Shown here: in pieces, positions 1,230 to 13,911 of the stretch
Layout: every line of letters begins with the position of its first letter
Numbering within the stretch: the stretch's first letter is position 1
DNA from: a virus
Virus record (IMG/VR): IMGVR_UViG_3300033143_003059
Coordinates: 1 to 22,179 of that record
Reading direction: 5' to 3' (one strand)
Length of the DNA stretch: 22,179 bases
Translations under genes and position numbers: made by a program
Notes under the pieces: model-generated
Database searches by the model: none
What the model was told of the DNA's origin: nothing
What the model saw: the letters and a program-made list of their open reading frames with translations, nothing else

Positions 1230-4200
1230 CTATTGACGCCTGCCACGCATAAGCTCTAGCGTACTTGCGGGAGAGTCGTCTGCCTGCAATATCTCAATGT
1301 CGAAATCATCAAATATAACAAAATTATGCGTTCCCTCTCCCTTGTCCCTGCTGGCTCTGTCTAAGTACTTAATCCCTCTTATACCCCTGTCAAGTAATGC
1401 CTCGGACGCCGCGGGCTGACTACCGCCTCTATACTCCGTGTAAAGGTTGTATATTCCCTGACCCTTGAGTTGCCCCTCATCCACTCCGGGGTTAATTTTC
1501 TTTACGCTCTCGATTACATCCTTAAGAGCTTCCCTGACTTTAGGGCTCTGCTCTGATAGCGGCTTATCCCATAAAAGATAATCTTCCTGCTTAGGCTTCA
1601 AGTCTACCTTAAATGTGGTGCCGCCAACTTCCTCCCTGTAGTTGACGCGATCCCTGAACCTTTCAAATGATTTTGTTATTTTATTTATATTCTCCTGTGA
1701 AACACCCTGATCCTCAAGCCTAGCAATATATACTTCTGGCGTTCCATAGGCTCCGGGCTTCGCTAAAGCTTCAACGGCATTACGATCAGCCCAATCCAAG
1801 TCCATTATATCGATCTTCTTTCCGTCTATCTCGTAAACGTGGTCTATCTTTGATAGTGTTGATCTGTATATATTAGCAACCTGCTTACTGTCTGTAAAAT
1901 ACAATCCGTGTCCAAACGCCTGATTGCCCTCTCCTGTGCCTATTTTACTTAAGCTAAATTTATCAAAAGGCTTACTAGGACTCCCGTGAAAAGCTGGATG
2001 GGCAAACACTAACCCTCTCTGACCTCTTGGCTGTCCAAAGAGAGCATCACCCTGCGCTGGAGCATAGCCTATCATTGTATCAACATCGAAATTCTTTGTT
2101 GTCCTTCTCTCGCTGTTGTTGGGAACGTCCCAGCCCTGCCAAGCACCTTCTAGGCTTTTGCCGTCTCTCTTGCGCTTCTCACCCATTAAAGCCCTAGTCT
2201 GGTCGCTAACTTCAAAGTCTGGGTTATTATCAAACTGCTGTAAATCTACCAACACTTCAGTCTGTATCTGGTCGGCTGTCTTATTACCCGTTCTCCCTTC
2301 CTGCATGGCTACTTGAATATTCGCATTGATTGCGTCCATATCCCTAACCTGCATCTGTATCTCATTCTTCTTGTTGATGACAAACCCACCCTCTGCTACA
2401 GCGTAGCGCCTGCGCAGTTCCGGGGATTGTCTTGGGCCTGTCTTTGTCTCATATCTAAAAGTCATTGCCTGCCTGTTAAGGGCATCTGCCTCCACTTTAT
2501 CTATCCAAGCCCTAGCCTCTGCCTGCTTGCTCTTCGGGAATTGCTCAACCCATACTGTCTTAACGTTCTCTGGGATGGCTCCACGTATTACAGCCTGCCC
2601 CCGCTCGATGGGGATGCCTGCGTTTTTAGCTGTCTTTATCAAGTCTCCCTCCCTGAGTTTTGTCTGCTTCTTTAGCTCTGGGGCTATAACTGGCTGACCT
2701 GTAGACACAGGATCGTTTTTAAGGTCATCCACAGCGCCTTTACGGGTCTTTACGTCCTTGGGGCTGGTGTAGGTCTTCAGCGCATCATCAACGGCCTTAT
2801 TGAGTGTTCTAGCCTCCTGCTGCCAAATCCTATACTGCTCCCGAACATACTTGCCTGTGGGGGTGTTGGCCGCTTGGTCTATGCTCTTTGCGTAGCTTGG
2901 GGTATTTCTGGGCTGTTTGCCCATGAAGTTGAGTAGTTGCTGCCTGCCTGCGTGTACCACCTTCTGCGCCCATACCGGCATCTTAGGGCTGAATACACTT
3001 TGATTGCTCGCCATATCAATACCTGCCTGCGCTCCATAGTATTCCACTACCGCCTGCTCAAAGCTTTCTATTCGTGGGGCTCCGCTTGCATCTGCCTCTC
3101 TATTGTAAGCATCTACAAAGTTTGACAGCTCCTTATTTACCTTCACCTCTCCCGTGTCAGTCTGGAGGGCTCTGCCTTTCGGGTCTTCAAATCTCTTTGC
3201 TTCTCTCTGTATAATACTTGGGTCACTCTTCATTACCTGAGTCATAGCTACATGCCCCAACTCTTCCCCGATAATGCGTAAACCTTCAGCCCCAGAGAAA
3301 TCCTGATCTGAATTAAGCATAATCACATTGTCATCCGCAAAGTATAGGGCTCCGTTGTTAAACTCTCCAGCTACATCGGGCTTAGACTTTAGCGCCTCAA
3401 CAGCCCTACCAAAGTCTTTATTATCTAAAAGTATTATATCGTCCGGTAAGAATCCCGCCTCCTGCGCCTGACCCAATGCTGCTTTTACCTCGTTTGGCAT
3501 AGCCTCTAGCTTCTTGCTCTGGTCTATGTCCATTAGGGCCTGACTCTTCCTTGAGTTGATTTCCTGCTGGGCTAGGTTAAAGCTTCCTTTTGATCGTGCT
3601 GTCATTTCGCCTGTCAAGGGGTCTACAAGCCTCGTAGAAGCGCCTGCGCCTGATTCCCCTAGTGTTGCCCCTAATGCGCCGCCAAAAGCCGCTCCTGTGC
3701 CGAATGCCTCGCCAAGCCCCCCAGCGTCTAACCCTCTAAGGTTTGCTTCTGCTGCGTTAAGGATACCTGCTTGGGTTCCATCTACTACCGCATTGAATAA
3801 TACGTCTCCCGCTTGAGTGCCTCCCAGTCTGGATGCTATACCCGCCAGCTTGCTTCCGTGTTCTTGGTGGAGGATGTCTAAAAATCTTTTCTGTCTAGTT
3901 GGATTTGCTAGTGCTGAGGCTACTGCCTGTGTCTTTACTCCCAAGTTCTTTAAGCCTCTGCCTGCTAATTCTGCGGTCTTACCGCCAACAATACCGCCTA
4001 ATGCTGTGGCTGTGGCCTTTCCGCCTGTGCCTGCTACGTCTACTATTGCCGTTGTGCTTAAGGCGCTCTTCCCTCTCTGCTTGACCGCCTTGCCGAGCTT
4101 CTCCGCCCCAGAGCCTACAGTCTTCATTGTAAATCCTAGGGGTTTACCTGCTACTTTAGCCGTTCCCTTTATTACGCCTCTAGCTATAGACCGTGGAGCC

Positions 4201-4946
4201 TGCCCCATCTTCTGCGCAGCTATGCCTAGCTTACCCATTCTTCCTATCTGACCTATTGGGCCTGTCAGGTTTAGCGGGTCGCTTACAACCTCTGCTACCG
4301 CTAAAGCATCTTCGTCTACCGTCTTGGGGTCGATGATAATACCCTTATTGATTCTATTCTGCAGATCCTCGTTCTCAATCTTGCGTCTAAACTCTCTACG
4401 CTTTTCCTCAATGTCGGAAACAGCAAAGTCTCCTATGGCTCCAGCTAAGTTCTCTGCAGCCTTGCCGATTCCAACAACATTACGCGCCAAACCCTCAGCC
4501 CCCACCTTAACGTCCTCAATCATCATATCGAGGCGCTCCTGCGGGCTTCCGAATGCTAGGGTCTTTCCGCGTCTAACGGCATTCCTAACTAAAGACCCGG
4601 CTATACTAGACAAACCCCTACCCGCTCCAGCCACGAAATCCCCCGTTTTCTGAAGGGCAGTCTTATCTGCGTCTTGAGATAAAAACTCATTAAAACTAGG
4701 TAGGGCTGGATTATTAATCTTAGCCTCCCTCCATGCGTCTGCAAGTTCTGTGTCAAACTCGTCTGCTATGTTGTTATACTGAAGTTCTGCAAACTGATCC
4801 TCTGTAACCAAACCAAAGTCTTCCGGGTTGAAAGACTCAGGAGATGAACTAACCTCGACCAATCCCAAGGATGCGGGGTCAAAGCCTTGCTGTGCTGGTT
4901 CTATTTCAACTAGCCCTAAAGATGCTGGATCAAAGCCGTTTGCCAT
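1230..4946 (-). CDS. Large virion protein with C-terminal ADP-ribosyltransferase (ART-PolyVal-like)
   Basis: The 1238-residue protein is the third of the probable ejection set. N-terminal tandem repeats with FDPASLGLVE (residues 4-37) plus a diverged copy (38-49) precede a long Gly/Ala-rich helical region (about 100-450) and charged helices. At 561-565 it has EELGH, close to HExxH but with Glu in place of the first His. The C-terminal part (about 985-1215) matches phage polyvalent ADP-ribosyltransferase domains: FHGSP (His987), FDKFSLSKIGTGEG, GHGLYFT (Tyr1016), GIKYLDRASRDKGEG and THNFVIFDD. These transfer ADP-ribose from NAD to host targets in related phage proteins. The start overlaps the preceding stop (TAATG). 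The toxin-like enzyme riding on an ejected protein suggests modification of host proteins at DNA entry; the target is unknown. Confidence 0.8.
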   Translation of the reverse strand: MANGFDPASLGLVEIEPAQQGFDPASLGLVEVSSSPESFNPEDFGLVTEDQFAELQYNNIADEFDTELADAWREAKINNPALPSFNEFLSQDADKTALQKTGDFVAGAGRGLSSIAGSLVRNAVRRGKTLAFGSPQERLDMMIEDVKVGAEGLARNVVGIGKAAENLAGAIGDFAVSDIEEKRREFRRKIENEDLQNRINKGIIIDPKTVDEDALAVAEVVSDPLNLTGPIGQIGRMGKLGIAAQKMGQAPRSIARGVIKGTAKVAGKPLGFTMKTVGSGAEKLGKAVKQRGKSALSTTAIVDVAGTGGKATATALGGIVGGKTAELAGRGLKNLGVKTQAVASALANPTRQKRFLDILHQEHGSKLAGIASRLGGTQAGDVLFNAVVDGTQAGILNAAEANLRGLDAGGLGEAFGTGAAFGGALGATLGESGAGASTRLVDPLTGEMTARSKGSFNLAQQEINSRKSQALMDIDQSKKLEAMPNEVKAALGQAQEAGFLPDDIILLDNKDFGRAVEALKSKPDVAGEFNNGALYFADDNVIMLNSDQDFSGAEGLRIIGEELGHVAMTQVMKSDPSIIQREAKRFEDPKGRALQTDTGEVKVNKELSNFVDAYNREADASGAPRIESFEQAVVEYYGAQAGIDMASNQSVFSPKMPVWAQKVVHAGRQQLLNFMGKQPRNTPSYAKSIDQAANTPTGKYVREQYRIWQQEARTLNKAVDDALKTYTSPKDVKTRKGAVDDLKNDPVSTGQPVIAPELKKQTKLREGDLIKTAKNAGIPIERGQAVIRGAIPENVKTVWVEQFPKSKQAEARAWIDKVEADALNRQAMTFRYETKTGPRQSPELRRRYAVAEGGFVINKKNEIQMQVRDMDAINANIQVAMQEGRTGNKTADQIQTEVLVDLQQFDNNPDFEVSDQTRALMGEKRKRDGKSLEGAWQGWDVPNNSERRTTKNFDVDTMIGYAPAQGDALFGQPRGQRGLVFAHPAFHGSPSKPFDKFSLSKIGTGEGNQAFGHGLYFTDSKQVANIYRSTLSKIDHVYEIDGKKIDIMDLDWADRNAVEALAKPGAYGTPEVYIARLEDQGVSQENINKITKSFERFRDRVNYREEVGGTTFKVDLKPKQEDYLLWDKPLSEQSPKVREALKDVIESVKKINPGVDEGQLKGQGIYNLYTEYRGGSQPAASEALLDRGIRGIKYLDRASRDKGEGTHNFVIFDDFDIEILQADDSPASTLELMRGRRQ
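4800..4937 (-). repeat. N-terminal tandem repeats of the large virion protein
   Basis: Two 17-residue units starting GFDPASLGLVE and a third diverged copy (SFNPEDFGLVTE) sit back to back at residues 4-20, 21-37 and 38-49. Similar short FDP-type repeats occur at the N-termini of other phage internal proteins and may dock the protein inside the capsid. The repeats are nearly identical at the protein level, so they may have expanded recently. Confidence 0.75.
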
Positions 4947-11234: not shown

Positions 11235-11726
11235 CTATACATAATTGTTGTTAATATAGTCATCTATGCCGTTATAAATACTATCATACCTATCCTGTGT
11301 AAGGTCTGCATCTATGGTAACTGTAAGCATTTTTTCTCTGGCAGTCATCCAATGCCCTTGAATAAGCTTTAATGAAACCAGCTCTAGCTTATCTTCAATC
11401 CTATAAACGCTGTCTATTGGCCTGCTTCCTGTTTTAAATTCCAGTGCTAAATCCGCCATGTAATCTTCATAAAAAGAATTACCATCAATCCTATAATCCT
11501 GATACTCTGTTTTGACCTTTTCCTTGTTCAATACATCTTGATCCGTCAATGATGCATATTCATTTTTTATTTCAGAAATAGACTCGGCGGTTTGCTCAGA
11601 TTCAAAATAAACCTTAAGACTACTGCCTACCGTAAAACCTTTATTCAGGGGGTGGGCTTCGTTAAGCCAATCGCTAAAGTATTTACTGTCAGCATTTTCA
11701 TTCTTGGGCGTTTCTACTACAAACAT
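11235..11726 (-). CDS. Hypothetical protein of the AT-rich cassette
   Basis: I place the start at the internal ATG 11726 (163 residues, MFVVETPKNEN) because GGAGG lies 7 bases upstream of it; the ATG at 11744 has no such site. The protein is acidic and mixed helix/strand, without Cys or membrane segments, and Tyr/Asp-rich (YQDYRIDGNSFYEDYM, IYNGIDDYINNNYV). It shares the low GC of its partner (17 of 60 at 11521-11580). No family is recognised. Overlap with the cysteine-cluster gene and shared composition suggest that the two form one transferred unit. Confidence 0.7.
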   Translation of the reverse strand: MFVVETPKNENADSKYFSDWLNEAHPLNKGFTVGSSLKVYFESEQTAESISEIKNEYASLTDQDVLNKEKVKTEYQDYRIDGNSFYEDYMADLALEFKTGSRPIDSVYRIEDKLELVSLKLIQGHWMTAREKMLTVTIDADLTQDRYDSIYNGIDDYINNNYV

Positions 11727-12067
11727 TCCATAACCTCCCGACATCTCTTAGATTGATTGCTAAACTCTACGCAGGCAGACGGCCTATTTTCATAAATCCC
11801 ACAAAGCCTAGATGTTCTGTCTAAAAATGCACAATAACCATCCTCATCCTTATCTAACGTGGCATAAGAATCTTTGCAAAGATCGTCTATTAAACCTTTT
11901 TTGTTTTCGTAGTAAGGGTTTTCTTTTAAAAAATCATTTACCCTTACACTTATCCTATCACCATAACCCAGCACATGCAAAGAATCAGATTCCTCCTTGG
12001 TTATGTCTACTTGTAGTTTACAGCAGTTCGACTTGCACTTAAGGCATATGTTTTCTTCTAATTCCAT
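11717..12067 (-). CDS. CxxCxxCC (YkgJ-type) metal-binding protein
   Basis: The 116-residue product has ten Cys: 8, 11, 15, 16, 64, 79, 89, 99, 109 and 115. It starts CLKCKSNCC and contains GYCAFLDRTSRLCGIYENRPSAC (split as GYCAFLD, LCGIYENRP and SAC), the hallmark of the YkgJ/CxxCxxCC family (putative zinc- or iron-chelating). The biochemical role of the family is poorly known; a relation to lysine modification (as in FliB) is a possibility only. The gene overlaps the fibre stop by 10 bases and the next gene by 10, so the three could be translated together. Base composition is clearly AT-rich (15 GC of 60 at 11881-11940), unlike the neighbouring capsid genes, which suggests a transferred cargo gene. 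It could modify or load metal into the fibre, or serve as a host-directed accessory gene. Confidence 0.8.
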   Translation of the reverse strand: MELEENICLKCKSNCCKLQVDITKEESDSLHVLGYGDRISVRVNDFLKENPYYENKKGLIDDLCKDSYATLDKDEDGYCAFLDRTSRLCGIYENRPSACVEFSNQSKRCREVMECL

Positions 12068-13911
12068 GTTGCAATAAATATTTCGGCTTCAGTCCACGTC
12101 GTTGAATCGCCTAATGTTGATAAAAATAGATGAACCTTGTCGCCTGCGTTTAAATTAACCTTTCCCCATAATCCTTGTATGCCGTTTGCCCTGTTCTTTT
12201 TGGCCTGTTGAGCCTGAGCCCACGGCTGACCTCCAACAACAGCACCGCTACCCGTATCAATGCCATACGCTAATTCTATGGCACCATTATCTCTGTTTAG
12301 GTCTGTTCCGATGTTTAATTTTCCGTGAATCAAATACTCTCCCGTCCTAGCAACATCTATTTCTAGCGTCCCTGAAGATGGAACACACTCTAAGGGTGAA
12401 CCATAGGCCGCGTTCACAGTGCCGCCAACTGTATTTACAGCAACTTGACTGTAATACTTGTCTGCGTCTACTGCAACCGTTGCCTTATTACTGCCTTCAT
12501 CTGTTACGCTTAGGTTTGATCCTTCAAAATTTAATGTGCTATTAACCGTGCCTATTGTTGAATCATTTTCTTGAACAATTATATTGGCCCCTGCGCCCGT
12601 ATCTCCTTTATCGCCTTTAAATGCTTTTAATTGGATGGCTGAAAAACTAGACTCATCACCTTTAAATGTTCCTGTAATTGTGGTTGTAGCCTGTGACTCA
12701 ACCTGAGTCTGAATTTCCACATAATCACCTGAGTTTAATTTGACGGGCGGTGGGTTGACTGAGCATGTCCAAAAGTCAGAAGCATTGCCGCTGTTTCTAA
12801 TATAAGAAGAACCGTAGGGCTGAGACTGTAGAACACCATTAATCAATATTCTTGAAACTGCTTGCAGTCTTTGCGCTGAAGACTCTAGCCGAATATTAGC
12901 CGCGATTTGATACGTTCCGTCATCTACAATATTTATCCTGCTATTATTTACGGTATTACTGTGCGTAAATGCGCTATCCTTTTCCCGTTCAACATCCCAT
13001 GCTAACACTTGCGGGGTTGATTGGTTTATTGTGGTTGTTGTATCTGTTGACGTTAGGCTAATTATAGGCAGCGGAGACTCTGTTCCCGAACTAGCTGGAA
13101 CCCAGTTGGAGCCGTCCCACTCAAGAACCTCACCAACGCTTGGTGGGCTTGTCGATGTGTCTACATCGCTGTGAGTGTCTATGCTTCCATCTGCGCTTAC
13201 CTTAGCTGTATTGGCGGTTACAGAGGCATTATTGCTTACCTCAGTGTCAAAATCGGATATGGTAGAGGCTGTCTGAGTTCCCGTGTGATTGGCCCTGTCT
13301 AGCGGGTTGGTGGACAACGCTCCATTAGGTATTCCTGTAAAGTTTGCCCCGTCGAATGTTGGAGAGCTTCCAGATGTTACATCCTGATCAATAAAGGTGT
13401 GGTCTGATCCGTCAGATGTGCGGTGTGTAGTATTGGCGGCAACATCCGTATTATTACTTACTTCCGTGTCAAAGTCCGTGACCTGAGAAGCCGTTATTGT
13501 TAAATTAGATTCATCAACATCTATATCAATTTCGCTGTTGCCTGCATCATCCGTAACAGTAATTTTGTTGCTGCCCGCATTGATCCCTTTAAACTCTAGG
13601 TTTACCCCTGTCTTCTGTTTAAAGACTCCGACTCCTCCTGCATTAACATTAGAAGCTGTATTAACCTCACCGCCGCCAGTGGCGTTAAGGGTAGTGCCAG
13701 ACATGGCTAGGTTTGACCCTAGCGTGATCTCTTCGTAGTTTCCGTCTCCAGAGTCACCCCTACCAAGAAGCTTAGAAGCCTCAACATCCTTTAGCGCCTG
13801 AATGTTCGTCAGGTCTGTAGACGTAATATCCGCAGCAGGAGATGCGAGAAAAACCGGATCGGTTTCTCCTCCTACTATATCAATAGAGTTGTCTACGCGT
13901 TCCAGTGACAT
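12058..13911 (-). CDS. Tail fibre with two C1q-like heads and a collagen-like link
   Basis: The 617-residue protein has a modular fibre build. The N-terminal ~135 residues have short beta repeats. Two copies of a TAS-[QT]-[VI]-[TS]-DFDTEVSNN unit lie at about 138 and 212, with SSPTFDGANFTG between them. Residues about 280-430 look like a C1q/TNF-like jelly roll (NIVDDGTYQIAANI, LNSGDYVEIQTQV). A tiny collagen-like GDKGDTGA follows at about 431-440, and residues about 485-617 form a second C1q-like domain (ARTGEYLIHGKL, VNLNAGDKVHLFLS). C1q-like trimers bind surface glycans or proteins, so host recognition is the likely role. The last codons overlap the cysteine-rich gene by 10 bases. Confidence 0.75.
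   Translation of the reverse strand: MSLERVDNSIDIVGGETDPVFLASPAADITSTDLTNIQALKDVEASKLLGRGDSGDGNYEEITLGSNLAMSGTTLNATGGGEVNTASNVNAGGVGVFKQKTGVNLEFKGINAGSNKITVTDDAGNSEIDIDVDESNLTITASQVTDFDTEVSNNTDVAANTTHRTSDGSDHTFIDQDVTSGSSPTFDGANFTGIPNGALSTNPLDRANHTGTQTASTISDFDTEVSNNASVTANTAKVSADGSIDTHSDVDTSTSPPSVGEVLEWDGSNWVPASSGTESPLPIISLTSTDTTTTINQSTPQVLAWDVEREKDSAFTHSNTVNNSRINIVDDGTYQIAANIRLESSAQRLQAVSRILINGVLQSQPYGSSYIRNSGNASDFWTCSVNPPPVKLNSGDYVEIQTQVESQATTTITGTFKGDESSFSAIQLKAFKGDKGDTGAGANIIVQENDSTIGTVNSTLNFEGSNLSVTDEGSNKATVAVDADKYYSQVAVNTVGGTVNAAYGSPLECVPSSGTLEIDVARTGEYLIHGKLNIGTDLNRDNGAIELAYGIDTGSGAVVGGQPWAQAQQAKKNRANGIQGLWGKVNLNAGDKVHLFLSTLGDSTTWTEAEIFIATWN

Follow-up and report, generated by a model that had tools for sequence, protein, structure and literature searches.

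An exchangeable phage fibre tip linked to a CxxCxxCC protein and a second accessory protein

Transferable modules made of a fibre and its chaperone are already known. In the Alteromonas phages A5 (gp8/gp9), V22 (gp26/gp27), and P24, such a module is common to podo-, myo-, and siphophages (PMC10579305). In phage T5, the gene for Llp, a periplasmic lipoprotein, lies adjacent to and downstream of the gene for the receptor-binding protein pb5 (PMC9586334). The enzyme FliB carries a CX4CX3CC motif, likened by its authors to PF03692, which holds the [4Fe-4S] cluster needed to methylate flagellin lysines, that is, surface lysines of a filament protein (PMC8598068). Here, a locus is described that resembles the Alteromonas module in that a fibre and a directly downstream accessory gene are common to phages otherwise unrelated. 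Whereas the Alteromonas module has one chaperone with beta-hairpin tentacles, two accessory genes are present here, and one of them encodes a CxxCxxCC protein (PF03692). No paper among those searched describes a protein of this family as an obligate fibre-tip partner, or links the family to phage fibres at all.

The window, as the whole stretch of DNA under study is called here, is a 22,179-base IMG/VR virus contig with the minus-strand late genes of a tailed phage, and the virus is known from this metagenomic contig alone. The late genes upstream include those for a portal-sized protein and an SU10-type major capsid protein (PF17236, E 1.4e-30). The fibre gene (12058..13911, minus strand, 617 aa) is followed by two real ORFs on the same strand, gene A (11717..12067, 116 aa) and gene B (11235..11726, 163 aa from a conserved second ATG, or 169 aa from the ATG at 11744). 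The original prediction had described a ten-cysteine YkgJ-type gene and a partner that overlap the fibre gene and each other by 10 bases. This was borne out, as A has ten cysteines and a PF03692 match above the gathering score (38.5 bits versus 23; E 1.9e-9), and both overlaps were found. In the fibre/A overlap (12058..12067, minus strand), the ATG of A lies on the invariant terminal Trp codon of the fibre (A-TGG). The A/B overlap (11717..11726, minus strand) would be 28 bases if B started at the first ATG; it is taken as 10 bases because relatives conserve the second ATG (11726) as the start of B; most of these relatives have 13 bases. No clear ribosome-binding site was found before A, which together with the 10-base overlap suggests that translation of A is coupled to that of the fibre gene. 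Promoter- and terminator-like sites were no more frequent than expected by chance, and no tRNA was found. The "lysis genes" said to lie downstream are plausible by position and by their small, membrane-like products, but no family model confirmed lysis.

Searches with A, B, or the tip (the last ~136 aa of the fibre, 12061..12468, minus strand) showed the tip, A, and B in that order in 14 of 14 distinct contigs. The tip profile recovered L009 to L011 and later L025, L026, L029, and L031, and an independent A profile recovered L015, L017, L018, and L019. No tip lacking the A-B pair was found among the 14 contigs, and no A-B pair lacking the tip was found among relatives with E <= 1e-25. In addition to these contigs, L020 carries a fragment of A followed by B. 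The contigs come from one collection and the counts are small; because L018/L029, L017/L031, L009/L020, and the window/L002 are kin pairs and not independent, it is fair to count about ten separate module lineages. Thirteen of the 14 contigs have a fibre/A overlap of exactly 10 bases; in L015 it is 1 base. The unit linked to A and B is the last ~135 residues, since in L011, L025, and L026 the gene before A encodes only 160 to 212 aa. The distances of tip, A, and B were correlated (Mantel r 0.56 to 0.67, p 0.0005), a result that is inflated by related contigs. At the sensitivity of the tools used, searches of 50,697 isolate phage records gave no match for the tip or for B, and 84,980 species genomes yielded no tip. 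When related phages were compared for presence or absence of the pair at the fibre end, as had been proposed, the tip was always accompanied by the pair, which did not fit the expected cargo. The coupling part of the proposal about A and the fibre gained support from the same strict linkage. We hold with high confidence that the tip, A, and B form one receptor-binding module.

The nearest relative, L002, retains the fibre-A-B arrangement, with 86% identity to the window in A and 80% in B. In the fibre, the last 406 residues are 96% identical between the two, and those before them about 60%. In the DNA, identity to the window jumps from 0.5-0.7 to about 0.92 at ~13,190, runs at 0.72-0.98 through the tip, A, and B, and drops sharply right after the stop codon of B. 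The exchanged part of the fibre gene (12058..13190, minus strand; the upstream edge is approximate) begins at about aa 240 and comprises a linker, a first beta-rich domain, a collagen-like stretch (GDKGDTGAG), and the tip. The N-terminal part of the fibre is that of the resident phage, and the C-terminal part is that of the module. Between the window and L002, pS was 0.30 in the fibre C-terminal part and tip, 0.43 in A, 0.70 in B, and 0.74 to 0.79 (saturated) in the flanking genes; from this gradient toward B, B may have been exchanged earlier than the tip. In the fibre stem, "DFDTEVSNN" repeats occur at ~13,190-13,500 of the window, and L002 lacks about 76 residues there, so stem length changes at the edge of the exchanged block. 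In the more distant L003, homology extends from fibre aa 276 on (55% identity) into A (44%), with the same 10-base overlap. The B homologue of L003 (8336-8937) is interrupted by a frameshift close to an A-rich run, with MYKIELSINTNAK in one frame and KYFTEWLRLNYSLNF... in another; a sequencing error, recent decay, and a programmed shift would look alike at this site.

Backbones were compared on fetched flanks of 2 to 20 kb per contig, and they fall into at least five groups that share no gene or at most a stray one, "unrelated" being meant over the stretches compared. No ORF is common to any two of the groups {window, L002}, {L017, L031}, {L018, L029}, and {L026}. The fifth group is a loose cluster (L003, L009, L010, L011, L015, L019, and L025), of which L019 and L025 have one ORF in common with {L018, L029}. 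Tail sheath and tube genes are present in L029, a P22-type coat protein gene is present in L026, and tape-measure proteins are encoded in L017 and L009, with no sheath seen in L017. The phages bearing the module thus include a myophage with a sheath, a podophage of the P22 kind, and a phage with a tape measure, so the module moves between tail types. L019 has five ORFs in common with L015, that is, an L015-type backbone. The identities of its tip, A, and B are 72, 53, and 56% to L018 versus 53, 41, and 35% to L015; L019 thus combines an L015 backbone with an L018/L029-like tip, A, and B. For 14 of 14 contigs, the same tip and accessory genes were found in unrelated genomes with different tail types, as expected of a transferable fibre and accessory module. 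The original prediction of transferred cargo was therefore right as to transfer, but the unit is the fibre tip with A and B and not a two-gene cargo placed on a resident fibre.

The tip is well conserved, with 37 of 137 columns invariant, including C29 and K91-K92-N93 (137-aa tip numbering), and a mean column identity of 75%. Its sequence pattern suggests that it may fold as a jelly-roll of the C1q/TNF type. In the L018 fibre, a weak BclA_C match (E 0.056) precedes the tip. For A, the eight cysteines C8, C11, C15, C16, C79, C89, C99, and C109, that is, the motif CX2CX3CC plus four more, are invariant in 14 of 14 contigs, and a ninth is present in 13 of 14. A PF03692 match was obtained for all 6 A members scanned at E <= 1 (best 8.1e-12), and the signature RLCxIYxxRPxxC is the same as in the bacterial YkgJ/YcgN proteins of this family. 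The nearest cellular relatives of A are from Bdellovibrionales (35% identity, E 3e-12), and no fibre gene lies beside them in the six loci inspected; unlike them, the phage A stands next to a fibre gene and has a conserved C-terminal Cys tail.

As in FliB, the Cys cluster of A is N-terminal and PF03692-like, and each protein has eight conserved cysteines; by analogy, the substrate of A could also be an extracellular filament protein. Unlike FliB, A is only 116 aa long and is missing the other ~290 positions of the FliB model NF038110, to which it gave 19.7 bits versus a cutoff of 85 over positions 12-86 of 373 and hence no full-length match. The FliB model had no match in the control genomes, and no SAM or methyltransferase domain was recognizable in A. 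Since A retains only the cluster part of FliB, its role may be that of a modifying enzyme acting with a partner, of a donor of metal or clusters, or of a redox helper. The AlphaFold model of A was poor and unreliable (pLDDT 59), whereas that of B was good (mean pLDDT 92.5). B is predicted to have a beta-alpha-beta-beta-alpha N-terminal domain followed by a helical part, which differs from the Alteromonas chaperone. The N-terminal part of B is the better conserved, and the C-terminal parts are of different types. B had no significant match in Pfam, PHROG, or PDB sequences, including the known fibre-assembly families, and thus matched no known family by sequence; searches of PDB sequences with A, the tip, and B gave nothing convincing.

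Several other matches were set aside. The match in the record of Pseudomonas phage Y11 (OQ572412.1, ~22729-23013, L004) stands among bacterial-looking ORFs in an unverified, unannotated record; these ORFs are oxidoreductase-, glycosyltransferase-, and transporter-like, and are probably host sequence in a phage record. The viral matches L005 to L008 are short CxxCxxCC proteins of 84 aa in other contexts without the tip. By eye, those of L005 (3716-3970) and L008 (7809-8063) lie directly behind a radical-SAM-like ORF and before a sulfotransferase-like ORF, and those of L006 (546-800) and L007 (7965-8219), in a second phage type, lie behind a short HNH-like gene that itself follows a terminase-like gene.

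The strict linkage, the translational overlap, and the joint exchange indicate a dependence between them: either the tip owes its value to the phage to A and B, or A and B owe theirs to the tip. We prefer, with moderate confidence, the reading of an exchangeable module in which both accessory proteins act on the tip, B in assembly and A in modifying or loading it. That A and B act on the tip at all is the part we consider probable. Both would do so on the newly made tip in the infected cell, with B as its folding, assembly, or capping partner. A gene immediately following a fibre gene typically encodes an assembly helper; for this reason, and from the Alteromonas precedent, B is read as an assembly partner or cap, although its varied C-terminal types are not what a strict one-tip chaperone predicts. 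A, a probable binder of iron or zinc, would hold an iron-sulfur cluster or metal by means of its eight invariant cysteines. With it, A would modify the tip or load it with metal, and the invariant Lys-Lys-Asn and the invariant Cys are candidate targets. A new tip would work only with its own A and B, which would explain their joint movement. The chemical action of A on the tip, proposed by analogy with FliB, is tentative and somewhat short of an even chance. The most specific form of this proposal is doubtful: covalent modification of the tip (for example, at Lys-Lys-Asn) by A as a dedicated iron-sulfur or metal enzyme, with binding specificity partly post-translational and the enzyme travelling with its substrate from one phage type to another. 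The invariant Lys and Cys residues may serve receptor binding or folding instead.

The reading of the pair as AT-rich cargo (a moron) taken up recently from a low-GC donor and unrelated to the fibre draws, like the original prediction of transfer, on base composition. The pair is indeed low in GC: 11235-12067 has a GC of 0.367, the lowest of any 833-base stretch of the window (others, minimum 0.419, mean 0.480, sd 0.020). The lines with 15 to 17 G+C of 60 cited for it are among its lowest, the mean being 21.8/60 versus 28.6 elsewhere. As evidence of transfer, the composition fails, and low GC as the sign of a foreign donor was rejected. In every one of the 14 contigs, the AT content of A and B together exceeds that of the genome they lie in, by 0.04 to 0.14 and across contigs of 32% to 48% GC; their GC follows that of each phage genome (r = 0.82), and the AT-richness lies mainly at codon positions 1 and 2 (for A, a mean deficit of 0.109 at positions 1-2 versus 0.064 at position 3, with exceptions). 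The low GC is therefore a property of the A and B proteins. Since, in addition, the pair was never seen without the tip among relatives with E <= 1e-25 and the block common with L002 includes the C-terminal part of the fibre, unrelated cargo is already contradicted and very improbable. Within the fibre gene, a GC3 step was suggestive at first and was dropped after a permutation test (p 0.255).

The main rival is receptor masking, in which the tip sets the receptor and A and B change or block it in the infected cell against sticking of progeny or superinfection, like Llp of T5. A receptor-specific blocker would likewise stay linked to its tip, so the tip-A-B linkage alone would also fit masking. 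Llp stands next to pb5 on its downstream side (PMC9586334); FliB, the studied PF03692-like enzyme, also modifies a host surface protein (PMC8598068). This rival is nevertheless unlikely, because A and B, in contrast to the lipoprotein Llp, have by inspection no signal peptide, lipobox, or membrane segment, masking would require two proteins, and exclusion proteins are typically expressed early, while the gene to which the pair is overlap-coupled is a late, structural one. Alternatively, A and B could be virion parts of the fibre end, B as a distal adhesin or cap remaining on the tip and A as a metal-stabilized adaptor, with no enzymatic step. Proteins of the T4/T2 gp38 type are encoded at the same position behind the fibre gene, and the variable C-terminal part of B is as expected of a receptor-contacting protein. 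The conserved element here is the tip itself, however, and PF03692 proteins are not known to be virion parts, which makes this arrangement distinctly improbable.

If, as in the preferred reading, A modifies or metal-loads the tip, a maturation step in phage receptor binding has been overlooked, and host-range prediction from sequence and heterologous expression of fibres would miss it. The phage A is also a small, stand-alone version of its family, FliB being the one enzyme there for which a description of the chemistry was found.

Two further genes were noted. In four contigs, another gene lies shortly behind B (L018 7031-7750, L019 6991-7623, L025 6404-7027, and L029 6420-7139); the L029 copy had no Pfam match, and the products have a membrane-like N terminus and a conserved C-terminal domain ("SPKCSVRYTF...FNCKxLF"). 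In the window, 1230-4946 (minus strand) encodes a large virion-type protein of 1238 aa with a weak match to ART-PolyVal, the ADP-ribosyltransferase of polyvalent proteins, at residues 986-1038 (E 1.7e-4, 22.8 bits versus a cutoff of 31.2), and it is possibly an injected ADP-ribosyltransferase.
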